Source of the DNA: Mermis nigrescens | Lineage: Eukaryota; Nematoda; Enoplea; Mermithida; Mermithidae | Length of the DNA: 64,000 nucleotides | Assembly (NCBI GenBank): GCA_036768485.1 | Contig: JAVLUZ010000150.1 | Location: 3,109,160-3,173,159, forward strand | Direction: 5' to 3' | Shown: in pieces, positions 29,025-59,955 of the stretch | Position numbering within the stretch: position 1 is the stretch's first letter | How the letters are laid out: each line of letters begins with the position of its first letter | Translations under genes and position numbers: made by a program | Notes under the pieces: generated by a model | Databases searched by the model: none | What the model was told of the DNA's origin: nothing | The model's input: only the letters and a program-made list of their open reading frames with translations

Positions 29025-30763
29025 CAGACATACTCATACACATGTGCCTGCCCAAAAGGTCAAACAAAGATTTATTAGTTTATTACATTTTTATTTTTTG
29101 GAATGAAATGAACAAGCCTTCAAGAGGCGTCAGTCAGCAATAACATACATATTGCCTAGAACGCCATCAAGAAGGAGGCGACAAAACCAGGTTTATAACC
29201 TACCATAAAGAAAGTAACGTAATTACGTATTTTGTTGCCATCACAGATATCAAATGGATGGCTTTATCACTTGTGGAACGCTTGAATAAAGGAACTAATT
29301 TAAGAACTAAGTTCAATTGGAAATGAAGTGACTCTTTTCCGAACTAAATTCCTGAGAACTAGTAGTCGTAACTTAGTTCTATTTTATTTCTTACTTAACT
29401 ATTTCAACTAGAGTACGTATACCTAACGTAATCTACTTTATAGCATTGCAATTTCCGAACTTGTTCTAGAGAAATGCTCAAAATTCGCATGCACTTACGA
29501 TTTTTATTCCAGTTTTTCTTGCAAAAAAAAGATGTATAAGAAGGGCACAATAGCGGGTAAAAAATTTAATTTATGAATCGCGCACTTTTTTCTGAAAAAT
29601 TTACTATTAATCATGCCCGTAAACGGATTTAATCGTGTTGGCCTTAGGAGTGTTAATATATTTCATAAAAACAAATACTTTCCTCAAAGACGCCGAGAAA
29701 AGCCCGGCGCAAACTGAGCCGGAAAATTTGAAATTAGGATTAAGAATAGCGAAATATTACTGAAGCTGCATTCCCGTTTTCATTTATATAAGGCATGGTG
29801 TGAAATAAAATGCCTATCAAGTAAACAATCGTTCAAATTACTCCGTTTTTTCTCTCGAATCCATTGTAAAGCATTAAAAGCTTTGCAGTACACGTGAAAA
29901 CCACATTTTCTGGAGGATCACTTATAAGGAAGTGAATATATATCATTAATGAGCACTATCCAGCTGTCAGCGCAAACGACTTACTGTACACATAATCGCT
30001 AATTTAACATTATTAATTATTTAACTTTGTAAGGAAACGCGCTGATTTAGAAGTTTAAACCATTATTGTAACGTAAACTTTAAGTTTAGATGCATACTGT
30101 ATTTTATATCATATATATATATTATCATTAGCGTAACACGTACATTTTTATTTGATATATGTATCGCAAATACATTATGTATATCGCGATTTCGCCGAAA
30201 AGCCAGATATGGTAATGCGTAGAAAAGCGGCAAATTGAAAGAAGATGAGAGCTAGCTAGTACGGTATGTGAATTGCAGACATAAAGACTCCAAAAAGGGA
30301 TTAAAACTGAATTCCAGACACAACAATGAAGTTGACTTAACCAACTTGAATGTCAGACAGAGCGGCTGGGAACCCAGCCATAAGCCGAGTTTAAATCCGA
30401 GAAATACACAAAAGTCAATGAAAGTAGCATATCAATTAGCATGAGTGATGTGTTAAGCGATAGGAAAAGTTCAGCATGCAAGTACGCAATAAATCTCACT
30501 AAATGCAGCGCTACGCTCTGTTATGAAATAGATACAAAATCGGTGAGACCAAAAACGAATGTAGAAAGTATGGCGGAAGCGGGAGGTTAAAAGAGGCCAA
30601 AAGGGTAAAGCTAAGGTATCAAAATAAGAGATATAAAATACGTGTAAACCTCACGGAAAAGATACCCAAAAACTAAAGTAAGCAAAGTTGTTTTGCTTTA
30701 ACTCGCCAAGATTAAGCTTCTTCTTAATCCTTTTACTCGCCAGACCGTATGGCTCCCGAAAAC

Positions 30764-30800
30764 TATAAAAATTGGATTAGAACAACAAAATCGCTCAGTC
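30764..30800 (+). promoter_or_regulatory. LTR core promoter: TATA box plus TCAGTC initiator
   Basis: TATAAAAA at 30764-30771 lies 33 bp upstream of the A of TCAGTC (30795-30800), the spacing expected for an RNA polymerase II TATA-Inr promoter. The same pair occurs in the 3' LTR at 41780. TCAGT is the arthropod-type initiator. Confidence 0.75.
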
Positions 30801-30980
30801 CCGTATGCCCTATTTAGAAAGTCTCCGTATTTTACTGCAAGCTCGAGAACGCTTATTTCGCATTCATCTAATCTTCATCGTTTTCGGCAATATTCACGCA
30901 GCCAGTCCGGCTGTACGGCGAAAATTTGCGAACTCATTTGTTACGTCACTTCTCACTTAACTGTAAGTTTTACTTTCAAC

Positions 30981-30986
30981 AATAAA
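30981..30986 (+). promoter_or_regulatory. LTR polyadenylation signal AATAAA
   Basis: It lies about 185 bp downstream of the inferred transcription start. The copy in the 3' LTR (41997) would end the genomic RNA. Confidence 0.6.
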
Positions 30987-31053
30987 ATCTAAATCGTAAT
31001 TATTGCTGATCTAAGGACTACGCTACCACAAAGGAGTTGGACGTGACATAATT

Positions 31054-31071
31054 TGGTGGCAGCGGTGGGAT
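31054..31071 (+). promoter_or_regulatory. Primer-binding site, tRNA-Leu type
   Basis: TGGTGGCAGCGGTGGGAT starts 5 bp after the LTR. It is complementary over 18 nt to the 3' end of the animal tRNA-Leu species that ends CCCACCGCTGCCA plus CCA. The TRIM at 2387 has the same site with one change. Confidence 0.85.
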
Positions 31072-31981
31072 AATTCGCCGTTGTGAATTTAAAACAAAAA
31101 CGGTTATTTTCGCCTAGTGAGTACCAGAAAATCGGATAAAAAAAATTCTCACCTTTTGGGAATTCTAGAAAATTTCAAACGGATTTCCGCCTAAAGTCGT
31201 AAACTTGCTTTCGGGTTTTCTAAGGTTTACCAAATTTAAAATTTGCTTTCCGATAGTTGAATTTTATTTTTTCCCTCAGACACCGATTTAGAAGTTGAGA
31301 GATTTTATTTCTTATTTTGTTGAATCACGACAGCAATTGGGACGATTTCTCTATTTCTCGAAGGTCGAAGGGGTGGAATATTCTCCGGATTTTAGCCTAG
31401 TGAAAGGATAGGGAAAGAATTTATTGCTGATTTTTATTTTGGGGATACTGCGGATATTCTTAGAGGGAAAGGTATCGTAGTTTTTAAATCGCCCAAGTTT
31501 GAATTAATTGATTTTTTTCACTCGGGTCCTCTTGAATAGAGTTGCTCCTCTAAAATAGAGTTGAGTTTAAATTGAATTATATTATATTTATATTATTTCC
31601 TGACCTTGTTATCGTGATTCCGGTCAGAAGACGGCGCCGTGTTATTTATCCTACTTGCTGAAATCGTTTGGCCAGCGTTTTTCAGCTCGTCCCAAAAATC
31701 CTTATTAAATCCCGAGTACCGAGTTTATTGAATTATTGAAGTATTTGGAAGGAATTATTATTATTTGAATTTATTTGATTATCGGTGTGAAGGAAAGCTA
31801 AACAAATTTAAAATAATTATAACTTTAAATTACGGATTCCCAATTAAACGTATCCGTAGAACTTGAAAGTAGGCAGGAAAGTCCCGAAAACTCAGATCTA
31901 GAAAGTGAAAATTTTGGCGAAACTCTTCGAGCGCACGGAAATCTTTTAGAGTCTATTCGAACTCAAAGTCCTGAATCGATT
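31072..31981 (+). other. Gypsy leader region
   Basis: Non-coding leader up to TAA at 31826-31828. After that stop the Gag frame is open but contains no ATG until 32180. The real start may be non-AUG, supplied by splicing, or mutated. Confidence 0.7.
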
Positions 31982-34900
31982 TTGAACGCTCATCAAAATT
32001 TCCTAGATTTATTTTTAGATAGTACTTTTGGCCATCCACAAGCCCAAAGTACCCCTGGAACCTCGCAAGTTAACATATCAAAACTGGTTGGAGAAAGGCA
32101 GACCATCCTTCCTCAAGTAAAAAGGTCAGAAATCAGAGAATTTTTGATTCAACATTTAAATAGACCAGTTACTCGAGCTATGGCTAATGACGACAGAGAT
32201 TTAGCTGTTGCCTTTAGACATGCTTTTGATGAATTTGGTGACCCTATCAACCAACAATTACGTAATATCACTGATGCGTTAAACCAGGGAGCCGGTCGAC
32301 CCGCAGAGGGAGATCCTTTTCTTCGTTTGGGAGCTATCATGAGCACAAGACCACCAAAATCGTTTTCTGGATCTTTTGGAGAATCATTTCCGGAGTGGTA
32401 TGAAAAATTTAGGAAATTTATGACACTTCAAGGCGTTTCTGGAGCGGAAGATTCCTATAAAATCGCATTTTTAGAATCTCATTTTATTGGTACAGCCTTA
32501 GCAAGTTTGGTAGACATCCTCAAGACCCATCCCGGAATTATTTATGATGATTTGATTGAGGAGTTGAATCAGGCTTACCCAGAGGGTAGGGATTCCGACA
32601 TTTATCAAGGGCTTATTTACGATGCAAAACAAAAAAGGACTGAGTCCGTTCTTGAATTTGTCGAAAGGCTCAAAAAGTTGGCAAAAGCAGCTTATCCTGA
32701 AGTAGCATCGGAAATTCGTGAAAAGATGCTGAAACCGATTTTCGTTAGAGGACTTTTGCCTAAAATTTATGAAGGCTTAAAATATCAGGAAATCGACACT
32801 TTCAAGGACGCTATCCGAAAAGCTATTTATACGGAGCAACAAGTTTTTCGGGAAAATGTCCAGGAATACCCTACAGCCCAAGAACCCAAAACAAATTATA
32901 ATCTGACTGTTTTACGTTCAGACGACATGTACTCGGATCAGATCAGGAGCCTGGTGCAAGCAGTCCAAGAAGCATTGGGAGACCGACGACAGCTAGCTGG
33001 GCTAAGTCGCCGCCCCGAACAGCAGTCGCGCTGTTCTCGTTGTGAAGTTTATCACGGCAATCAGCGGTGCCCCTTCGGTAATAACTTTAATAATAATTCA
33101 AATTATCGAAGTAATCGTACAGACCGTTTTGATAATAATGATAATTCGAATTATCATAATTATGTAAATGGATCTATAAATCGAAGGCGTTTGAATTATA
33201 ATAATATCTACAATCGCGGTAATTTTGGTCGAAATCCGAATTTTGCAAATAATCAAAATAGGCAGAATTTTCGACAAAATCCAAACTTCGAAAATAATCG
33301 TTGGAATAATAGGCGTAATAATAATTTTTATCAATCAGATAATTTAAATCGGAGCATACAAACTGGTTGGAGAGGAAACCAGCCCAGAACTCAGAGACCC
33401 AATCCCGAAACTCAAAATTTCAGTAGACAAAATCCTCAGACATCCACGAATAATAACATTTTGGTCGAAAGTCACGTAATCGAAAATGAAGGACCCGAGA
33501 ATCCTGAAGTTTTGGATGTTGAGGATGAGGGACTGATCCAACGAATGGCAGGAAGTGGTCGTATAAATTTAGTAAGAGTTCCTAATTCCATAGAAACGAC
33601 CGAGCCACCCGGGCCTGAAAGCACCGATAGCGATGCGAGTTCGACTGATTACGCAGCCCTCGAACGCGCCAATTGGGCTCGAGCTTGTTTCCTAGAAGAC
33701 TACAATCGCTGGCAATCGGAAACGCGCTTTTTCCGTTATGAAAATGGTCGCTTGTATCGCTTTGATGGCGATAGTGGTCTCGATTCCGAGGGAGTAGCGA
33801 TAGATGCCCACAATTCGCAAAATGAAAATTCGTCAGATGGCCTGGAACAAGAATTTCTGGCTTGGCTACCAGCCCCAGCTAACGACCTTAATGTAGAATT
33901 CGAGGACTTAGAACGTCCTATTAATCCAATCCAGCCATTAAATAATTTAAATCGTTCTGAGTCTGACGACGGAAATCTTTCAGCCATCCGAACGGGACGT
34001 CAGCGCCGACGCCCACGTCGTCGTCATCATCGCAATCGTCGTACACGCAACTTAGGCCATTTGGCTTATATACGTCGTCGTCGTCGCGAATCCAGCTCTT
34101 CCGGCGGAAATTCATCTCGCCCGAATACGCCAATTAGATGCACATGCATCTATTGCCCTCTCCACGGCCGTAATTGCGATCAACCGACGCCAACGCCTAT
34201 ACCTCCGCCAGCCGTAATTATTTCGTCAACCCCGGCTAGTCCCGAGCCGGCGGAAGATGGTGACGTCGCTTTGAATATGTGGGAACGTTACGAACTCATA
34301 TCAGGTGAGAATATTAAACATTATTTTGCCAAATTATTTTTCCCAATATTCCAAGAAAATTCTTTTAAAATACTTAATAACTCTTCTATTTTTATTCATT
34401 TTCTACAAGTTTTTGCTTTCCTTTTCACTTATCTTCCAGTAAAATATTTGTGCATATTTTATCTTATTTTATGGCATTGTACCTGCTATAGTTTCCTGCT
34501 GTGTATTGTTAGCATACTTATGATGTCCTTTAAAAAATTAAAATTATGGTATAAATCGAGGTTTGTAATAAAATGTTGTTGGAGACAGGCTCAAGAGTGG
34601 AATATACAGAAAAGTCGATTTTTTCTATTATCAAAAATTCTAGATTTACAAAATAAAAATAGAACAAGTCGAAACTACAAGTGCTTATCTTTTAACTCCA
34701 ATTTTTGCATGAAACAACGAGACTTGGAAAATGTTCCTGTTTTACAGAATCGTCGGACCGTGGGCAAAGTGACCCCGTTACTGATTCAGAAAGTTTCGAG
34801 AATGGTCCAGCTCCGACCGAAGTCAGTGGATCAGAACCAATGGCTGCCGATGACTAAAAACAGCTTATCGGTAGTATTGTCGAAGGCTAAAAGAGCAAAC

Positions 34901-37900
34901 TTGCGATTTTTAAGAATAAATCTCGTTAATAATTATATTTTCGACCTAAAAAACCTCAGTTTATGCATTTTAAATTACTGTACAATATTAAAATTTTTTG
35001 TTTGGACGCACATGCTAATTTTTGGAATGCGTATCGGCTTTATTAATTATCTTTCTATCGTAAAAGTCGATTTGAGTTTAATTTTTTGTACAATTTTAAA
35101 ATTTATTGCTTGGATGTATGCGCTAAATTTTGCTATACTTAACTATTCTTTTTTTACCGTGAAAACTGCCGCGAATCTTCGTATAATTTTTAATGTTATT
35201 TTAAACAGTGCAATCCATGTTTATACAATTCCTAGCCACTGTGTAGTTTATTTAAGTTTACGTAAGTCGAAGTATTTTTCCTCAATTCCGTTTATTGAAG
35301 TTACCGGAATTAAATGCCCCAAAATAGAGTTTCGCAACCTAATTTTTGTAATATTGTTGACTATAAACTCTATGCAATTTATCAACGCGGAAAATAGAGA
35401 GTTTCAAATTTGTGGCACTAGTCGAAGTGGTCACCCTGTAGATATACCCCGTTCAGTTCAGTGCACGTTGCCTGGGGGAAAACTGTCTAAACCTGAGGAA
35501 CAAAATGTTACAATTTTTGTTCCAAGATTTGAACCAGCCACTTCTTTTGCCATAAAATGTATGAAAATTTCGAGAACTGTCTGTACCTACACTGGATTTT
35601 TCGGATCATGGGGTACAACCCATGACGAAACTAAAAGCGAGCCGGTTTCTTTTGAAGCTTGCAAAAATGCTTACCAAAATTTGGAGTTCGAAGGAAATCA
35701 TCTAAAAAAGGATAAAAGTGGATTTTTAACAACAGATCTAAAACTGGAAATCAAATATTCGTATTGTTGTCGAGATGTCTGCTCTTCTGTGACAAATTTT
35801 ATAATAGAAGAGGGACAGGTGGCTACCTGGGAAGGACAAATTGCTCTCTCAGATCTGGGAGATGTCAGCCTTTGTCGACCTACTTACGGAAAATGCAAAA
35901 ATCCTGAAAGCACTTTTCTTTGGCAGGGGGATTTGTTTAAAGAAATTTGTCCGTTTGTTCCCCGAGGTACGTTTTCCGCCTTACTCAGCGAGAAATACGT
36001 TGCAGTGAATGAGCTTCAAGCAGCTCTTATGCTAAAAGAAAAATATACTAAATGTGCTGAAATTTCAAATGCATACATGACAGAGCAAGGAATTTTGGTG
36101 GGTTTCAGTTCCAATCAGGAGTGGACATCCCGGCCTGAACATAAACTTGCGTCACCGAAAATTCTCAAAAACGAAAAATTACCACCAGATCCCGTGAATT
36201 TAAAACTGAATTATCTTGAAATTCGAATTCTTCAAGAAGAAATTTCTAGTTTTCGCAGAATTTGGTCTGAACTTTGCCGACAGTTTCAAAGAAATATTGA
36301 TATCATTTGGCAGCTTCTATACTTAGACCCAACCATAGGTGCTCGTGCTTTATTCCAAAGAAGAGATATAGTCGGTGAATTTACGGGGGACGTTTTAACG
36401 ATTTGGGGTTGCAAACAAGTGAATGTTACAAAAATTTATACGGATCATAAAATTAACAGCACATGTTATAAGTATATGCCAGTCGAATATGAAGGAGAAA
36501 TTTGGTTTGTCTTGCCTGGGGGCGAGGACCTCGTACATTTTTCTGAGACGGTCAATTGTTTACACAAAAAGATAGAAATATTTCGATATGGAGACAAATG
36601 GATCACGGAAAACGGCCTAGTTCATGTTTCAAAAGTACCTTTAGAATTAAAATGGAATGAAAACCTTACTTTCTTCCAATTCAATACCCCCGCAGTCTTT
36701 CATGATCAATTAGCGGCAGGAGAACCTACTTTTGGCTTATTTCGGAATTATTTGCATAAAACCGAAAAATTGGAAAGAACTTTACACAGACTTTTGGAGT
36801 ATACGTCCCAACTAGCCTTGGAACCTAGCGTTGTCAAAGAAGCATTGACTGGAGCTGGGACAGGTGTTAAAACAGCTATCGATGGGACTGAAAAAGCTAT
36901 TGAAAAACTTTTGACAAACACTCAAACTCGTTTTTCAACTAATTTTACCGCGTTGCTAAAAGGCCCAATGCAGCTTGTATTCAATTTGCTCTTAATAGTA
37001 ATCATTTTTCTCATAATTGCTTATTTCGCCTACTTATACATGATGCGAAAAACATTTTTCCCCACTTATGCTCACATTCCTCCCCCTAGATCTCTGAAAA
37101 GAAAACATGAATCATTGACAGACATGGTTGCTAAACGTCTTAAGTATGGAACGAGAAAGACTCTCAGCGGAATAAGAGCTGATAAAGTCGATATTAAATC
37201 CGAAAATAAGAATAGAGTGTCAACAAGTCTATGTACTATAAAAGAGGATACGAACAGTAAAAGAATACCACATATTACTGTACTTATAGATCAATGCATA
37301 CAAGTATCTGCACTCATCGACTCTGGAGCAGTGTACTCACTTCTGGATTTAGGGGTAGCAACAAAATTACCTTTCCTCCAGATTTATGAAAGCTCTATTT
37401 CTCCTATTGCTGCAAATGGAACTAAAATCGAAATTTTAGGCTCAGCAGTTATAACAGTAACCACTGGTGACATAAATGAGACAATTTTAGTGCATATTCA
37501 AGAACAGTGTTCTGGAGAATTAATTTTGGGCTCAAATTTTCTGTCTAGATTCAAAAAGATTGAGTTAGACATGGAGAATTCTACAATAAAATTTCGAGAA
37601 ATATGCATAAAAGCTGAAGGAATGAACTACAACCCGCCTGAGAATCGGAGCACAGTAATAATGAACCGTGATGAATGCATACAATCGAGATCTGTACAAT
37701 TAATTCAAGGTCGAGTTCCTAAAATCTATCGCCCTGGAGATCATGTTGTGTTTACTCCTAGCCCCAAAGCGCTGAATGCGGACCATAATGTTTATTTAGC
37801 ACACTGCGTATGTATCGTACAAGAAAATAATACGATTCCTTTACAAATATTAAATCCTCAATCATATCGCGTAAACTTGTATTCTAACGCGAAAATAGGT

Positions 37901-38866
37901 ACGATTAATATGCATAATGCAGATGCTAATACTACCGAGCAAAGCATGGAGAAAGTAAACATACGGGGTTATGGTAAAAGGGACATAAAGCAATGGATCG
38001 AGAAAAATACAAATATTTCTCGTTCTCTGAGTGAAAACGAAAGAGACGAAATTTTGGATCTTCTGGTAAAATATCCTAATCTGTATGCAATCGATGACAA
38101 TGACTGTGGTCATACCAACTTAATATTTCATGAAATTAATACGGGAGAGAACCCGCCTATCAAAAAACACCCATTTAGAACCTCGCCTGGAGAAAAAGAA
38201 ATTATCGTTAACGAGGTAAAAATGCTCGAAAATAAGGGAATTATTAGGCCCAGTATATCTCCCTGGTCCACAAACATCGTTCTAGTAAGAAAAAAGGATG
38301 GAAAACACAGAATGTGTATTGACTTTCGCGCTATTAATGACGTTACAAAGAAAAACGTTTATCCCCTACCACGCATTGATGATATTTTGGATACTTTAAA
38401 AGGCATGAAATATTTTACAACCTTAGATCAGGCTAATGCTTATCATGCTATACCAATTAAGGAGGAAGATAAGGAGAAAACCAGTTTTAATAGCCCGATT
38501 GGTCTTTACGAGTTTAATTTTCTTCCTTTTGGACTATGTAATGCACCTGCATCATTTGCGCGTCTCATGGATATCATCTTATCAGGTCTGCAATGGAAAA
38601 TTTGTTTGGTTTATTTAGACGACATACTAATTTTTGCACCAAACCACAATGAGATGATGGAACGACTAGAAATTTTGTTAGAACGGCTGAATAAGGCTAA
38701 TATGAAGCTAAAGCTGTCAAAATGTAAATTCTCGCATGAAGAGACTGTGTTTTTGGGATATGTAATTTCTAGAAAAGGAATTCTCCCGATCAAAAAAAGA
38801 TTGAAGCTATTAGAACCATGCCAAGGCCCACTAACTTCAAGGAAATCAAATCTTTTTTGGGTTTAA
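31982..38866 (+). CDS. Gypsy ORF1: Gag - class III Env - protease - reverse transcriptase
   Basis: The open frame actually begins after 31828; 31982 is a TTG, and the first ATG is at 32180 (residue 67 in the numbering from 31982). A capsid-like region spans about residues 130-280. CSRCEVYHGNQRC (351-363) is a CCHC-type knuckle with one fewer residue before the His. An Asn-rich tract (366-457) and an Arg-rich tract (about 670-693) follow. Hydrophobic segments occupy about 780-850. The envelope follows from about residue 1120, with a membrane anchor at 1663-1688. The aspartic protease has DSGA at 1780-1783 and the RT has YLDD at 2211-2214. The frame ends shortly after the RT because a base appears lost at 38785-38798, and ORF2 continues the same protein in the next frame. 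All parts share one frame with no stop between them. Confidence 0.92.
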   Translation: MNAHQNFLDLFLDSTFGHPQAQSTPGTSQVNISKLVGERQTILPQVKRSEIREFLIQHLNRPVTRAMANDDRDLAVAFRHAFDEFGDPINQQLRNITDALNQGAGRPAEGDPFLRLGAIMSTRPPKSFSGSFGESFPEWYEKFRKFMTLQGVSGAEDSYKIAFLESHFIGTALASLVDILKTHPGIIYDDLIEELNQAYPEGRDSDIYQGLIYDAKQKRTESVLEFVERLKKLAKAAYPEVASEIREKMLKPIFVRGLLPKIYEGLKYQEIDTFKDAIRKAIYTEQQVFRENVQEYPTAQEPKTNYNLTVLRSDDMYSDQIRSLVQAVQEALGDRRQLAGLSRRPEQQSRCSRCEVYHGNQRCPFGNNFNNNSNYRSNRTDRFDNNDNSNYHNYVNGSINRRRLNYNNIYNRGNFGRNPNFANNQNRQNFRQNPNFENNRWNNRRNNNFYQSDNLNRSIQTGWRGNQPRTQRPNPETQNFSRQNPQTSTNNNILVESHVIENEGPENPEVLDVEDEGLIQRMAGSGRINLVRVPNSIETTEPPGPESTDSDASSTDYAALERANWARACFLEDYNRWQSETRFFRYENGRLYRFDGDSGLDSEGVAIDAHNSQNENSSDGLEQEFLAWLPAPANDLNVEFEDLERPINPIQPLNNLNRSESDDGNLSAIRTGRQRRRPRRRHHRNRRTRNLGHLAYIRRRRRESSSSGGNSSRPNTPIRCTCIYCPLHGRNCDQPTPTPIPPPAVIISSTPASPEPAEDGDVALNMWERYELISGENIKHYFAKLFFPIFQENSFKILNNSSIFIHFLQVFAFLFTYLPVKYLCIFYLILWHCTCYSFLLCIVSILMMSFKKLKLWYKSRFVIKCCWRQAQEWNIQKSRFFLLSKILDLQNKNRTSRNYKCLSFNSNFCMKQRDLENVPVLQNRRTVGKVTPLLIQKVSRMVQLRPKSVDQNQWLPMTKNSLSVVLSKAKRANLRFLRINLVNNYIFDLKNLSLCILNYCTILKFFVWTHMLIFGMRIGFINYLSIVKVDLSLIFCTILKFIAWMYALNFAILNYSFFTVKTAANLRIIFNVILNSAIHVYTIPSHCVVYLSLRKSKYFSSIPFIEVTGIKCPKIEFRNLIFVILLTINSMQFINAENREFQICGTSRSGHPVDIPRSVQCTLPGGKLSKPEEQNVTIFVPRFEPATSFAIKCMKISRTVCTYTGFFGSWGTTHDETKSEPVSFEACKNAYQNLEFEGNHLKKDKSGFLTTDLKLEIKYSYCCRDVCSSVTNFIIEEGQVATWEGQIALSDLGDVSLCRPTYGKCKNPESTFLWQGDLFKEICPFVPRGTFSALLSEKYVAVNELQAALMLKEKYTKCAEISNAYMTEQGILVGFSSNQEWTSRPEHKLASPKILKNEKLPPDPVNLKLNYLEIRILQEEISSFRRIWSELCRQFQRNIDIIWQLLYLDPTIGARALFQRRDIVGEFTGDVLTIWGCKQVNVTKIYTDHKINSTCYKYMPVEYEGEIWFVLPGGEDLVHFSETVNCLHKKIEIFRYGDKWITENGLVHVSKVPLELKWNENLTFFQFNTPAVFHDQLAAGEPTFGLFRNYLHKTEKLERTLHRLLEYTSQLALEPSVVKEALTGAGTGVKTAIDGTEKAIEKLLTNTQTRFSTNFTALLKGPMQLVFNLLLIVIIFLIIAYFAYLYMMRKTFFPTYAHIPPPRSLKRKHESLTDMVAKRLKYGTRKTLSGIRADKVDIKSENKNRVSTSLCTIKEDTNSKRIPHITVLIDQCIQVSALIDSGAVYSLLDLGVATKLPFLQIYESSISPIAANGTKIEILGSAVITVTTGDINETILVHIQEQCSGELILGSNFLSRFKKIELDMENSTIKFREICIKAEGMNYNPPENRSTVIMNRDECIQSRSVQLIQGRVPKIYRPGDHVVFTPSPKALNADHNVYLAHCVCIVQENNTIPLQILNPQSYRVNLYSNAKIGTINMHNADANTTEQSMEKVNIRGYGKRDIKQWIEKNTNISRSLSENERDEILDLLVKYPNLYAIDDNDCGHTNLIFHEINTGENPPIKKHPFRTSPGEKEIIVNEVKMLENKGIIRPSISPWSTNIVLVRKKDGKHRMCIDFRAINDVTKKNVYPLPRIDDILDTLKGMKYFTTLDQANAYHAIPIKEEDKEKTSFNSPIGLYEFNFLPFGLCNAPASFARLMDIILSGLQWKICLVYLDDILIFAPNHNEMMERLEILLERLNKANMKLKLSKCKFSHEETVFLGYVISRKGILPIKKRLKLLEPCQGPLTSRKSNLFWV
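34305..35340 (+). other. Stop-free hydrophobic linker between Gag and Env; possible intron
   Basis: After the Gag-side segment ending ERYELIS there is a good donor (ATATCAG|GTGAGAAT, intron side starting at 34305). The next kilobase is AT-rich, encodes repeated hydrophobic stretches, has no recognised domain, yet stays open. It could be a spliced intron used to make envelope or pol messages, or a real multi-pass linker. No acceptor giving an in-frame join was identified with certainty: the best-looking one, TCCTCCCCCTAG near 37090, does not restore the pol frame. Confidence 0.4.
35340..37180 (+). other. Envelope domain, class III (gB-like) fusion glycoprotein
   Basis: A hydrophobic leader (NLIFVILLTINSMQFINA, about residues 1120-1137) precedes a Cys-rich ectodomain with several N-x-S/T sites. 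Landmarks are CTYTGFFGSWGTTHDE near residue 1200, a W...LC.Q...R heptad region near 1420-1440, then GD(V)L.I.GC..V and STCY..MPV (about 1467-1500). This last run matches the conserved layout of herpesvirus gB-type class III fusion proteins, also known in some chuvirus-like and retroelement envelopes. A single anchor (FNLLLIVIIFLIIAYFAYLY) and a basic tail close the domain and run directly into the protease. No furin-type site is obvious. Class assignment is from pattern recognition only. Confidence 0.7.
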
Positions 38867-40971
38867 TCTCTTACTATAGGAAATTTATTCCGGATTGTTC
38901 TCAAATTGCCGAACCTCTGAATAAATTGCTTAGAAAAGGGTACTGCTTTGCTTGGAAAGGCGAACAAGAAGAGGCCTTCGACAAATTAAAGGAAAAATTA
39001 GTCCAAGCACCCGTTCTTAGCCACCCAGATTTTAAGAGACCATTTATCCTACAAACAGACGCTTCTTATTCAGGAATAGGAGCAGTCCTTTCTCAAATAC
39101 AAGATGACAATATGGAACATCCCATTGCGTTTGCGAGTCGTAGTTTGAAAAATGCCGAGAAAAATTATGCGGTAACCGAACTCGAAACTCTAGCAGTGGT
39201 AGAATTCGTTAAGCATTTTCGTCCATATCTGTATCAACATGAAGTTACAATAGAGACAGATCACATAGCTGTAAAGTCAATTTTAGAGAAAACAAATCCT
39301 TCATCTAGAATTGCACGTTGGGGTCTAGCGCTGGCAGGTACCAAAATATGCGTCACACCCAGAAAGGGGTTGAAAAACCAAAACGCTGACTCTTTGTCTC
39401 GACTTCCGAATCCAAAAGAAACCAAATTTTTAGATATTGACGAAAACGAACTTAAAAACATTGAGGAAATTGGTGAAAATTCGTCAACAGAAACCTCGAA
39501 TAAAGACCTTCGTTTCAGCGTAAATTCTATCTTAGAAGAAAGAGATTCATCTGAGAAAACTAATTTTGAATTAGGAATAGGCTCATTGCAAAAACAAGAT
39601 TCAGAGTTGGAGAACTTATTTCTTTCGAACTCCCCCACTGAAGGATTCATTGTGCAGAACGACATGTTATTCAAAATTGACGACAATATACAGAAAATAG
39701 TAGTACCTACCGTATTAAAAAAACTCATAATTCATGCAAATCATGATGACGAGTTAGCGGGTCATTTTGGAGCCCGAAAAACAATGAAACTGATTACAAG
39801 AAAATATTACTGGAAAGGTATGAACAAGGACGTCACTGAGTACTGCAATACGTGCGATATGTGTCAAAGAAATAAACCTACTCGTAAAAAAGTTGTAGCA
39901 GGTCTCTACCCTATTTCTGCTAGAGGACCATTTGAAAGAATAGCTGTAGACTGTGTGGGACCTCTGAACTTTACTGAATCAGGAAACAGATTTATTGTTG
40001 TCTTTATAGATTATTTTACCAAATACATAGAAGCTTTTGCAACTAAAGACATAACTGCCCAAACTATTGCCAAACTTTTTGTAACTCAAATTGTTTGTAG
40101 ACATGGGGCACCGGAAATACTACAATCAGATAGAGGAACAGATTTTACTTCAGAACTAATGAGGGAGACAACTAAATTATTCAAGACACGACAACTTTAC
40201 ACAACACCTTACCACCCGATAGCAAATGGTGAGGTAGAGAGAGCAAATCAAACTTTAATAACGAGAATTCGGATGTACATCGATAAAAACGAATTAGACT
40301 GGGATAAACATCTTCCGTATGCAATCTTCGCTACTAATATCCATGATAACGAAAGTACAGGGTTTAGTCCTTTCTTTTTAATGTATGGACGATACCCCCA
40401 GTTGCCGATAGATGCGGTTTTAAATTATAATCGCCCGTTTTATCTGTTAGACATCGAAACTTACGAAGAAGAAGTTAAACAGCATTTTACGGAAGCTCTG
40501 ACTAAAGTTCAAAAGCAAATCGAAAAAGCTCAGGAAAGCTATAAGAAATTTTATAACATGAAAGCTAAAGACATAAGATATGAAGTGGGAGATCAAATCC
40601 TTTTAGAAAACGAAAGTATTAAGAAGGGAGTTCCCAAGAAACTTATGTCAGTTTATACTGGACCATATCGTATAATAAGGGTACAATATCCGAACTTAAC
40701 CATAGACGTAGGCAAAAGCCAACCACAAACAGTTCACGTTAATCGAACAAAACGGTATAGACAGCGATCAATGGAAAGTTTCCTAACGTCAATCCATAAA
40801 CAGGACAACAAAATTCAAACGTCAAACAAAAACATCGATAAAAAAATTGATGGAAAAGGAGAATTAGGAAGCCGTGTAAAGAAAAAGAAACAAGCTGATA
40901 AGCTACCAAAGCATGATTATTATTTACGATCGAGACCCTATGCAGTTTCGATCGAGGACGATCGAAGCTAA
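38818..40971 (+). CDS. Gypsy ORF2: RT connection - RNase H - integrase
   Basis: The nominal ATG at 38818 lies inside the RT thumb/connection, and coding similarity in this frame starts a few codons earlier, so this is the broken-off C-terminal half of pol and not a separate gene. FLGLISYYRKFIPD opens it. RNase H follows with LQTDASYSGIGAVL and an ETDH motif. The integrase has an HHCC zinc domain (ANHDDELAGHFGA ... CNTCDMC) and a D378, D438, E474 triad (D,D35E). A GPY/F module (GPYRIIRV) lies near the C terminus. The total is 717 residues. It overlaps ORF1 by 49 bp in the -1 frame. The stop lies immediately before the purine tract and 3' LTR. Confidence 0.93.
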   Translation: MPRPTNFKEIKSFLGLISYYRKFIPDCSQIAEPLNKLLRKGYCFAWKGEQEEAFDKLKEKLVQAPVLSHPDFKRPFILQTDASYSGIGAVLSQIQDDNMEHPIAFASRSLKNAEKNYAVTELETLAVVEFVKHFRPYLYQHEVTIETDHIAVKSILEKTNPSSRIARWGLALAGTKICVTPRKGLKNQNADSLSRLPNPKETKFLDIDENELKNIEEIGENSSTETSNKDLRFSVNSILEERDSSEKTNFELGIGSLQKQDSELENLFLSNSPTEGFIVQNDMLFKIDDNIQKIVVPTVLKKLIIHANHDDELAGHFGARKTMKLITRKYYWKGMNKDVTEYCNTCDMCQRNKPTRKKVVAGLYPISARGPFERIAVDCVGPLNFTESGNRFIVVFIDYFTKYIEAFATKDITAQTIAKLFVTQIVCRHGAPEILQSDRGTDFTSELMRETTKLFKTRQLYTTPYHPIANGEVERANQTLITRIRMYIDKNELDWDKHLPYAIFATNIHDNESTGFSPFFLMYGRYPQLPIDAVLNYNRPFYLLDIETYEEEVKQHFTEALTKVQKQIEKAQESYKKFYNMKAKDIRYEVGDQILLENESIKKGVPKKLMSVYTGPYRIIRVQYPNLTIDVGKSQPQTVHVNRTKRYRQRSMESFLTSIHKQDNKIQTSNKNIDKKIDGKGELGSRVKKKKQADKLPKHDYYLRSRPYAVSIEDDRS

Positions 40972-40980
40972 GAGGGGGAG
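40971..40980 (+). promoter_or_regulatory. Polypurine tract
   Basis: AGAGGGGGAG directly abuts TGTCAG of the 3' LTR, the expected plus-strand priming site. Confidence 0.85.
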
Positions 40981-42064
40981 TGTCAGCGCAAACGACTTAC
41001 TGTACACATAATCGCTAATTTAACATTATTAATTATTTAACTTTGTAAGGAAACGCGCTGATTTAGAAGTTTAAACCATTATTGTAACGTAAACTTTAAG
41101 TTTAGATGCATACTGTATTTTATATCATATATATATATTATCATTAGCGTAACACGTACATTTTTATTTGATATATGTATCGCAAATACATTATGTATAT
41201 CGCGATTTCGCCGAAAAGCCAGATATGGTAATGCGTAGAAAAGCGGCAAATTGAAAGAAGATGAGAGCTAGCTAGTACGGTATGTGAATTGCAGACATAA
41301 AGACTCCAAAAAGGGATTAAAACTGAATTCCAGACACAACAATGAAGTTGACTTAACCAACTTGAATGTCAGACAGAGCGGCTGGGAACCCAGCCATAAG
41401 CCGAGTTTAAATCCGAGAAATACACAAAAGTCAATGAAAGTAGCATATCAATTAGCATGAGTGATGTGTTAAGCGATAGGAAAAGTTCAGCATGCAAGTA
41501 CGCAATAAATCTCACTAAATGCAGCGCTACGCTCTGTTATGAAATAGATACAAAATCGGTGAGACCAAAAACGAATGTAGAAAGTATGGCGGAAGCGGGA
41601 GGTTAAAAGAGGCCAAAAGGGTAAAGCTAAGGTATCAAAATAAGAGATATAAAATACGTGTAAACCTCACGGAAAAGATACCCAAAAACTAAAGTAAGCA
41701 AAGTTGTTTTGCTTTAACTCGCCAAGATTAAGCTTCTTCTTAATCCTTTTACTCGCCAGACCGTATGGCTCCCGAAAACTATAAAAATTGGATTAGAACA
41801 ACAAAATCGCTCAGTCCCGTATGCCCTATTTAGAAAGTCTCCGTATTTTACTGCAAGCTCGAGAACGCTTATTTCGCATTCATCTAATCTTCATCGTTTT
41901 CGGCAATATTCACGCAGCCAGTCCGGCTGTACGGCGAAAATTTGCGAACTCATTTGTTACGTCACTTCTCACTTAACTGTAAGTTTTACTTTCAACAATA
42001 AAATCTAAATCGTAATTATTGCTGATCTAAGGACTACGCTACCACAAAGGAGTTGGACGTGACA
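40981..42064 (+). repeat. 3' LTR of the Gypsy element
   Basis: 1084 bp, the same length as the 5' LTR and matching it wherever I compared the two. It is followed by the CAGC target duplication. Confidence 0.95.
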
Positions 42065-43366
42065 CAGCGCATCGGACAAATTCGGAGAATTCAACAGACA
42101 ATAGTCAAAAATTCATGGAAAAGTCATATCAATTCTTTCCTCTTAATTGCAAACTGTATTGGGTATAAAGGTGAGGGCGGCCGCCCCTGAGGCAAATTGT
42201 CCCTAAAACAAAAAATCCTCAATAAAAAATCTCCAGCAGAACGTCCCCTTGGCAAAACCTCCTTATTTCAAATGTAAATCAAAAATACAAGTACCGACGG
42301 CTGTTTTCCAGCTATTATTTTTCCAACTTACACTAATATTGTTACATTAGCATCGCAATTTAGAAATCCACGCCTCCATTTCCACTATAGATATTATTTT
42401 ATTCTTTGTTTTAGATTTGCATGCACTCGGATCAAGTAAGCGAAAATTTCTGAAGTTACACGAATCCAATCTTGCACATTGTTTTCACCCTAAATTGATT
42501 TATTACGATTTTAATTTTTTTACTTACTTGTTTTAATACAACTTATTTATAAAGATACTTTTTGGATTCGCAATAATTCTACAAAATTATAATGGATTAA
42601 GCCTCTCCCAAGGTACATTAATGGATAGGGGTCACTTGGGGTCAAAGCAACGAAAATACAATGTCGGGATTTAACAATTTTCCACTAATAGCCGTGAACT
42701 ATGAGTATGCGGATGTTTCGTCACAATGGACGTTTGGCTAGGGATGTTTTTATATGGACGTTCTCCTGTGGACATTTTACGCATGGCCCACTGCCCTCTC
42801 TGAATCCGTCATTTTTTGAGAAACCCTACAGCCGATCTCTAAAAAATTTTTTGATGTTACACATAAAAATGTGAATAGTCTTTACACTTCTTTGTTGGAG
42901 TGAAAAATGATTATAATATTTTCATACTTCGAATGGAAATTCGACGAAACTCACGTCACGAAAATGGAATTCAGCAAAAATTTACATTGGCATTTAAATT
43001 TCCAAAATCGTCAACCGTGTCGAAGTTCATTTGCATGTTCTTATTGGTAAAAAATTTTTTTTTCGACACTGACAACGCACAATAGCGAAAGCAATTTATT
43101 GGTGAATAATAACTTAGTTTGTTAATTAAGTCGCTAATTCGCATCAGTTGTTATCAAACGAAAAATATAATCATATTTACGTACTTACTGGTCTCACAAA
43201 TATATGAATTAGCTGAATAGAGAAAGTTTTTGCTAACCGTAAATTTGATTCAGCTAAAACATATTTTCTACGTGAGCTATGGTTTGATACACTGAATGAG
43301 ACATTATGAGTTATAGCCGATCGCTTACATTATATTTTGGTTTATCGCACTTGTAATTCCTTCATC
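42065..43366. other. No gene recognised
   Basis: Sequence between the Gypsy element and the promoter of the secreted-protein gene at 43427. A small GC-rich palindromic patch (GGGCGGCCGCCC near 42178) is the only notable feature. Confidence 0.5.
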
Positions 43367-43426: not shown

Positions 43427-45801
<2,375 letters not shown>

Positions 45802-58654: not shown

Positions 58655-59955
58655 TTAAACCTACCATTAAATTATAAAGATAATAAAAGATTTAAAGCTT
58701 TAAGAAAAAGAAAATGTGGTAAATTAAAACAAATTTAAAGGATATGATGAAACATTATTGTTGAGAATAGGACGATCACGTGCTATGTATAATGACTCCT
58801 TGATTAAAAGATCAAAAGAGTTGGATGCTCGACTGATAACCTTGAAGCAATCTGATGTAATTGGATGATTGCTATTTGAGATATGTTTGTGAATAGCAGA
58901 TAAACTATCACCCTGAATTGGCTTTCCTGTAGCAAATGAGATGCCAGTATGCTCTGCCATTCTACTCCCAAAATGTCGGCGAGTTTCACCGATGTAACTA
59001 GCCATACAGCTAGAACACGTATACTTATATACTAAATTTGAGAGTAGCTTAGCAGATACAGCATCCTTGTTCTTGAAAAACCGGCTGATACACATAACAG
59101 GTTTGTAAACAAACCTTACTCTAATCTGAGGGTAAAATGCAGATATAACCTTTAGAATTCTGCTGCGTACATTGTAGCCATGCACACCAGTGTAAGGCAA
59201 AACAAGAGAATAGCATAGTTTATCACACCCAAATTTTATGTCATCACTCTTATTATAAACTTTTGTCATAAAGTCTGATATGACCGTATCAATCAAGCTA
59301 AGCGGATACTCATTTTGCAGTAGAGTCTGCTTCAGCTTGTCAATATCAGAGACAAAAGTCTGATATGAGTTACAAATCATGTGAATACGACTCACAAGTG
59401 TCTTTATTAAACCAACTTTATAGGCAAAAGGAATGAAGCTAGACAATTTGGCATAAAGGCCAGAAAATGTGGGTTTCTGATATGTTGATGTAACAATATC
59501 ATCGGACTTCCTTTCAACAAGCACATCAAGGAAATTTAATTTCTTGTCACATTCAGTTTCAAATGTGAAATTCATATTAGGATGTTGCTGATTCATGTAA
59601 TCACAGAACTTTCTAGGCTGATTTCTGTCAGAAAACACTACAAATGTGTCATCAACATAACGTACATAAAACTTGGGTCTAATCTTTATACTACAGTCTA
59701 TGAGCCACTTTGTTTCATGATGGCTCAAGAAAATGTTGGCAAGAATTGGGCCAAGCGGATTACCCATAGCAACACCATCTATCTGTTGATAGATTTTACC
59801 ATTACACGTAAAGTAACACTCTTTAACTGCGAGTTCTAGAAGCAGTTTGAATTGATGACAATTCATGTTATTTACTAACACGACATTCTGATCATCAAAT
59901 AGTTTCCTAATACATATGTCAATGGTCTCATTGAGTGGAATATTAGTGAACAATT
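58655..59955 (-). mobile_element. Penelope-like element, 5'-truncated
   Basis: The unit is bounded on both sides by reversed family A sequence, so it inserted into that array. On the minus strand it holds only the last 409 codons of the RT-endonuclease protein and a short 3' tail of about 65 bp. 5' truncation is typical of target-primed insertion. Ends are estimated to within about 20 bp. Confidence 0.8.
58724..59953 (-). CDS. Penelope-like RT with GIY-YIG endonuclease, N-terminus missing
   Basis: The open segment starts at FTNIPLNE, a conserved RT motif, and the upstream finger domain is gone. DGVAMGNPLGPILANIF (59-75) and YVDD (99-102) are the RT core and catalytic site. FLDV and TYQKPTFSG follow. 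The C-terminal GIY-YIG nuclease has YKYTC (309-313), YIG (320-322), Arg in GETRRHF, His335, the acidic LLIKESLYI segment (Glu386) and Asn near 398, with the CxxC characteristic of these elements. All nuclease landmarks are intact, so only the 5' loss inactivates it. Confidence 0.88.
   Translation of the reverse strand: MFTNIPLNETIDICIRKLFDDQNVVLVNNMNCHQFKLLLELAVKECYFTCNGKIYQQIDGVAMGNPLGPILANIFLSHHETKWLIDCSIKIRPKFYVRYVDDTFVVFSDRNQPRKFCDYMNQQHPNMNFTFETECDKKLNFLDVLVERKSDDIVTSTYQKPTFSGLYAKLSSFIPFAYKVGLIKTLVSRIHMICNSYQTFVSDIDKLKQTLLQNEYPLSLIDTVISDFMTKVYNKSDDIKFGCDKLCYSLVLPYTGVHGYNVRSRILKVISAFYPQIRVRFVYKPVMCISRFFKNKDAVSAKLLSNLVYKYTCSSCMASYIGETRRHFGSRMAEHTGISFATGKPIQGDSLSAIHKHISNSNHPITSDCFKVISRASNSFDLLIKESLYIARDRPILNNNVSSYPLNLF

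Follow-up and report, generated by a model that had tools for sequence, protein, structure and literature searches.

An env gene lies in frame between gag and pol in a Ty3/Gypsy lineage of the nematode Mermis nigrescens

Introduction

To describe an LTR (long terminal repeat) retroelement with an uncommon gene order, we analyzed a stretch of 64,000 nucleotides from Mermis nigrescens (contig JAVLUZ010000150.1, positions 3,109,160 to 3,173,159 of the forward strand), hereafter the window. The element occupies positions 29965-42064 of the window, and its domains follow one another in the order gag, env, protease (PR), reverse transcriptase (RT), ribonuclease H (RNase H) and integrase (IN). We assign it, with a probability of roughly 0.55, to a Ty3/Gypsy lineage in which an env gene of class III type stands in frame between gag and pol, and in which Env is probably produced as the central segment of a Gag-Env-Pol polyprotein. 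A gag-env-pol order in one frame had been proposed from the letters of this stretch alone (the original prediction), and it was borne out in the window copy, in diverged families of the same genome and in sequences from outside sources. In errantiviruses such as gypsy and ZAM, and in retroviruses, env follows pol and has its own message, which in errantiviruses is a spliced RNA. The window element is like errantiviruses in being an LTR element with a Ty3-type pol order and a membrane-fusion env, but their env lies downstream of pol, whereas that of the window element (35333-37030) is in frame between gag and PR.

Results

Architecture of the window element

The original prediction had confined the element to 31982-40971; the frames within these limits are real, but the extent was too short, since the complete element, with the frame under study inside it, is bounded by two LTRs. 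These LTRs are identical over 1084 bp, have TG...CA ends and are flanked by a 4-bp target duplication, CAGC. The lack of any difference between them indicates that the insertion is very recent. The frame 31982-38866 (2294 aa, first ATG at 32180) carries Pfam matches to capsid, env, protease and RT, and the frame 38818-40971 (717 aa) carries those to RNase H and integrase. The latter frame ends at 40971 and the 3' LTR starts at 40981; since the final stop is only 9 bp upstream of the LTR, env cannot fit in its usual place. The one-base shift that had been noticed before RNase H is present in the window copy, but the sister copies L013 and L021 have no break there, which marks it as damage specific to this copy. 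The Ty3_capsid match (E 1.8e-5) and the aspartic-protease matches are under Pfam's own cut-offs, and the protease motif DSGA is in place. Gag had been described as carrying a CCHC motif; a Cys/His motif is indeed present in the window copy, but its spacing is CX2CX3HX4C, one residue below the customary CCHC spacing, and the zf-CCHC model is not matched. The TG...CA LTRs, the 4-bp duplication (4-6 bp expected) and the PR-RT-RNase H-IN order agree with those of Ty3/Gypsy elements (Metaviridae).

The gene order is shared by many copies

A 168-aa env query against the 524-Mb genome gave 1292 candidate places, of which 150 were scored. Among these 150, 18 matches were at 100% (window included), the others ranged down to 53% identity, and 30 lay in stop-free frames of at least 2000 aa. 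Twenty env-match loci were fetched for long frames and for spread of identity, and thus form a non-random sample. Other copies with the same order were readily found in it: env was upstream of PR in all 20 and gag upstream of env in 18, the remaining two (L004 and L012) having no capsid match. A single frame of 2519-3104 aa ran from gag to integrase in five loci (L003, L005, L006, L008 and L009), and in eight (L003, L005-L009, L019 and L020) one frame took in gag, env and some or all of RT. In L013 and L021, one frame of 2398 aa extends from env to integrase, and the break lies between gag and env instead. As a side observation, L020 near 7233 has the same gag-env-RT frame, has no RNase H or integrase, and is joined directly to the 3' part.

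An integrase query gave 384 candidates, of which 40 matches were scored and 33 examined. Env was found 3.7 kb upstream in 16 of the 17 integrase matches at 100% (window included; compared by hand), and the odd one, C331 (L023), had lost the middle of the element. Of the other 23 matches, at least 12 had env upstream near the usual distance (C208, C29 and C93:153416 as read, nine by list), and two in C81 had env about 10 kb upstream. L028 and L030 showed no env within the 2.1 kb read before RT, and both have broken pol frames. Full-length copies lacking env were not encountered among the copies examined, which covered 33 of the 40 integrase matches. Two of the altered copies deserve a description of their own. 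C331 (L023) has 98.7-99.9% DNA identity; its spacer-env-PR part is lost and about 360 bp of other sequence lies between. L028 (C452) also lacks most of PR, and 97-99% of its RT residues are as in the window, indicating that it is not simply old.

Env is of class III type by profile

The window env matched PF24664 (Monjiviricetes_fusion) with an E value of 2.5e-12, above the cut-off. PF24664 was matched by all eight members of the env alignment (best 6.3e-18), as was the bornavirus G model, and the herpesvirus gB model was weakly matched by three of the eight, the best value of 0.01 being under the cut-off. The top two sequence matches in PDB were gB entries (E 0.014 and 0.035), aligned over the GD.L...C...CY stretch to which the original prediction had pointed. 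PF24664 proteins are presumably class III; these profiles therefore support an Env of class III type, and the weak gB values back kinship without proving it. The gB-like, class III nature of Env put forward in the original prediction is thus upheld at the level of profiles. The protein has a signal-like start near 35333 and then one strong anchor with a basic tail. Thirteen rows were tried for a conserved Met ahead of the signal-like segment, and the 11 that were read show none. The ratio of nonsynonymous to synonymous substitution rates (dN/dS) in env was 0.06-0.12 in five of six pairs, the sixth being saturated and dS being high throughout; by this measure, Env is under strong purifying selection.

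The frame is kept open between gag and env

The spacer of the window copy comprises 802 codons with no in-frame stop, as against 54 and 73 stops in the other two frames; a first-order Markov model gave a mean of 47 stops and a minimum of 28 in 300 simulations. Nine unbroken rows likewise had no stop over spacers of 388-935 codons, whereas each other frame had 21-102 (Markov mean 25-48, minimum 11-30 in 300 simulations). These rows were picked for an unbroken frame, and the window copy and L020 are near-copies of each other; despite this choice of rows, the occurrence of such long frames in several diverged families is beyond chance. Between families, the spacer gave short alignable stretches or none in the pairs listed, except at a short motif, CxxCPxH, and at WxR, both recognized by eye. 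A gag frame held open into env is what a polyprotein needs, and the long stop-free frames support the option of a polyprotein with an internal glycoprotein that had been raised from the window copy.

A splice-donor-like site and the alternatives to a polyprotein

In the subclade of the window copy, nine of 11 rows have GTRAG in phase 1 after the W motif, and the other two keep the GT (L005, GTGAA; L007, GTACA). About 0.013 such sites per row are expected by chance; the rows had been searched for with a filter on the W motif, so that the count of donor-like sites is not independent of that motif. T content rises 1.6- to 3-fold at the site in all 10 rows measured (L007 not included), from 0.14-0.21 in the 150 nt before it to 0.29-0.46 after it. 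The residues after the junction switch between E and K while GTRAG stays, and protein conservation drops at the site, as judged by eye and from blastn pairs. The stretch that follows resembles an intron under a requirement to remain translatable. Splicing had been offered by the original prediction as the other way to account for the gene order, and it is backed in part by the phase-1 donor-like site that one subclade conserves, but the acceptor could not be fixed.

All these properties of the site would fit an env that is an in-frame alternative intron (exitron-like), with splicing as the main control: the spliced RNA would yield Gag-Pol and the unspliced RNA the env product. An exitron has a length of 3n and no stop, and lies between a donor and an acceptor that are both conserved; the donor-like site and the stop-free frame are present, but an acceptor could not be fixed. 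With splice-site weights set to consensus values, no acceptor that keeps both position and phase was found before env or between anchor and PR. An in-phase AG stands at the S-L-G column in seven of 13 distinct rows and in L006, and L022 is off-pattern; this is insufficient to fix an acceptor. L009, L010, L011 and L016 have no donor at the matching place (the env anchor being approximate in L011 and L016), and one GTRAG each occurs elsewhere in L009 and L016. Five loci have a gag match of at least 95% but no env in the list; in the four that were read (C334 left out), no spliced provirus was found, one having an internal deletion with other ends, one a decayed env, and two diverging inside the spacer. 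Together with the non-independence of the donor count, these results make the exitron-like account rather unlikely. An intron confined to the region just upstream of env, whose removal would give Env from a spliced message as in gypsy, is improbable. Such an intron would suit a zone rich in T within the 350 nt upstream of env, and L018 and L022 do have good in-frame acceptors close to the signal segment. However, in-frame acceptors before env score low in the window copy, L003, L006, L007 and L008, and an open frame that is a mere by-product should collect stops, whereas the 159-501 codons from the donor-like site to env hold none in six rows picked as unbroken (Markov minimum 3-16 in 2000 simulations). 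Finally, an env fragment that landed in a single element, by chance or through an assembly artefact, with a frame open by luck, is hardly credible in view of the many copies on many contigs, the diverged families, the outside sources and the stop statistics; we found no point in its support.

Outside relatives and RT phylogeny

Env and RT were found in one chain in eight outside proteins (P0003, P0004, P0005, P0011, P0035, P0078, P0082 and P0099), and env was upstream of PR in all eight. Six of them were among the 120 listed of 2078 RT matches, so that at least eight such chains exist and there may be more. A gag match precedes env in five of the eight, one above the Pfam cut-off and four below; P0005 has a helicase upstream of env, and P0004 and P0035 begin in or at env. 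Scans of viral contigs with env and with RT queries gave no match. Some of these proteins have further domains. P0005 (3263 aa) has an SF1-type helicase (AAA_11/AAA_12) where gag is expected, then env, two protease-like stretches, RT, RNase H and integrase. P0099 (2797 aa) has an RNA recognition motif (RRM) RNA-binding domain between the Gag zinc knuckle and env, followed by pol, all in a single protein. P0011 has at least two protease-like domains in residues 1360-1863, which lie between env and RT.

An RT tree was built from 64 of 135 rows, chosen by hand; those dropped were mostly near-copies from one pseudoscorpion and duplicate loci. Fifteen of the 18 env-first rows formed one group together with P0016 and P0032 (support 96/84), and P0003, P0005 and P0099 were placed outside it. 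The phylogeny thus gathers most env-first rows, but a single origin of all of them, for which three changes are counted on the RT tree, is neither rejected (approximately unbiased (AU) test, p 0.0745) nor shown. Env and RT similarities run parallel (Mantel r 0.745, 15 rows, 0 of 5000 permutations as high). P0016 (1903 aa), in the main group, has no env match; between its gag and PR lie two hydrophobic segments, which may mean that membrane tethering is useful in itself; P0032, in the same group, begins about 100 residues upstream of PR. Among named proteins, those closest in RT are Gypsy-like proteins of animals; the tree was built without named reference elements such as Ty3 or gypsy.

Discussion

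A proposed membrane-threaded Gag-Env-Pol polyprotein

The polyprotein that we favor could work as follows. An internal signal would thread Env into the secretory membrane, with Gag staying cytosolic; PR-RT-IN, attached to the Env anchor, would be on that side as well. Gag would be separated from Env by signal peptidase, and Env from Pol by the protease of the element itself, located after the anchor. The membrane bearing Env would then also retain Gag, through the leftover signal, and Pol, through the Env anchor. For the subclade of the window copy, the conserved in-frame donor-like site suggests that some of the RNA may undergo splicing, and such splicing might skip env to give a plain Gag-Pol. 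A more specific proposal, which is tentative and has odds well short of even, is that env is optional: unspliced RNA would give the membrane-threaded Gag-Env-Pol and spliced RNA a plain Gag-Pol, as a switch between infectious and cell-bound forms. In that case, the unspliced product would keep the capsid, the enzymes and the fusion protein together on a single membrane.

Several observations weigh against a Gag-Env-Pol polyprotein. To our knowledge, a Gag-Env-Pol chain with a membrane-inserted middle has no precedent, and equal amounts of Gag, Env and Pol would be unusual without some bypass. In one subclade, the conserved donor-like site is also an indication of splicing. Moreover, L010, L017, L018 and L021 have gag in another frame than env, L013 and L015 have a break in the frame that connects the two, and in L011, L014 and L016 env itself is interrupted. 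Four near-identical copies, L013 and L021 among them, have in common one frame of 2398 aa from env to integrase, and in L013 and L021 gag is in another frame or cut off from env. A young variant was thus copied with gag and env unfused, which could be explained by help in trans or by frameshifting, but not by a strict need for fusion.

Relation to known elements

That env should follow pol is commonly regarded as a rule. A large lineage that keeps env within the gag-pol frame would represent another way to build an enveloped retroelement, would raise direct questions on topology, cleavage and packaging, and may be missed by scans that expect env after pol. Cer1 of C. elegans also has several genes in one long frame, but their order differs from that of the window element. 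Glycoproteins of a related kind have been described in other settings. Anakin is a BEL/Pao-chuvirus hybrid of mosquitoes in which an LTR element captured a chuvirus-type glycoprotein (PMC7642597); it has a BEL/Pao pol with the glycoprotein downstream, whereas the window element has a Ty3-type pol with env upstream of PR. The RT relatives of the window element are Gypsy-like and set it apart from BEL/Pao in a comparison that held no BEL/Pao row. Chuvirus-type glycoproteins have been found near Gypsy fragments in Hymenoptera and Coleoptera, the survey reporting no clear sign that Gypsy elements had captured them (PMC10084718). The window env is of the same kind and near Gypsy, but lies inside an LTR-bounded element and within its frame, so that such glycoproteins do occur inside Gypsy elements. 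Insect Gypsy elements with type III fusion glycoproteins have tandem GAG, POL and ENV frames (PMC13172572); their env is likewise class III, and the passages of that paper do not mention env between gag and pol. The Troyka superfamily comprises Gypsy-like LTR retroelements with CG...CG ends and 3-bp target site duplications (PMC12440569), and the window element differs from it in its TG...CA ends and 4-bp duplication. Among the titles and abstract openings listed in literature searches, none described env between gag and pol in one frame, and no paper was found with the phrase gag-env-pol; the 2025 survey of env-bearing animal gypsy elements by Chary and Hayashi may hold this order. Unless it is already given there, the gene order may be new for an env-bearing Ty3/Gypsy element.

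Features of the element and its surroundings

Table 1 Positions in the window of the parts of the LTR element and of its flanks.
Feature	Position	Strand	Basis or remark
Target site duplication CAGC, left copy	29961..29964	.	Flanks
5' LTR, 1084 bp, TG...CA	29965..31048	+	Same sequence as 3' LTR
Putative primer binding site TGGTGGCAGCGGTGGGA, 5 bp beyond 5' LTR	31054..31070	+	Sequence
Gag, C-terminal border approximate, N-rich tail	32180..33418	+	Pfam Ty3_capsid E 1.8e-5
Capsid match 32447-32839; CX2CX3HX4C motif 33032-33070	within Gag	+	Pfam, sequence
Gag-env spacer, first part	33419..34304	+	CxCxxCPLHG motif 34139-34177; W-x-R motif right before donor-like site
Splice-donor-like site, phase 1	34304..34309	+	Last exon-like base 34304; GTGAG 34305-34309
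Stop-free, unconserved, partly T-rich and hydrophobic stretch, donor-like site to env	34305..35332	+	
Env signal-like hydrophobic segment, internal, without conserved Met	35333..35389	+	
Env ectodomain, class III type by profile	35390..36973	+	PF24664 match 36167-36667; gB-like stretch 36296-36412
Env transmembrane anchor, then basic tail	36974..37030	+	Hydropathy
Aspartic protease, DSGA at 37319	37280..37549	+	Pfam
Reverse transcriptase, YLDD at 38612	38285..38767	+	Pfam
Overlap of the two frames (break between RT and RNase H)	38818..38866	+	Absent in L013, L021
RNase H	38953..39336	+	Pfam
Integrase, H2C2 zinc domain and rve core	39703..40218	+	Pfam
Purine tract adjoining 3' LTR	40970..40980	+	Sequence
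3' LTR	40981..42064	+	Same sequence as 5' LTR
Target site duplication CAGC, right copy	42065..42068	.	Flanks

The putative primer binding site, TGGTGGCAGCGGTGGGA, may resemble the 3' end of tRNA-Leu. Downstream of the element, the window holds long ATA and AAC triplet arrays (44823-45278 and 45526-45697), followed by an 18/36-bp array. On the minus strand, a frame of 409 aa at 58724-59953 has a partial RT match (E 6.3e-6, under the cut-off) and is probably another decayed retroelement.

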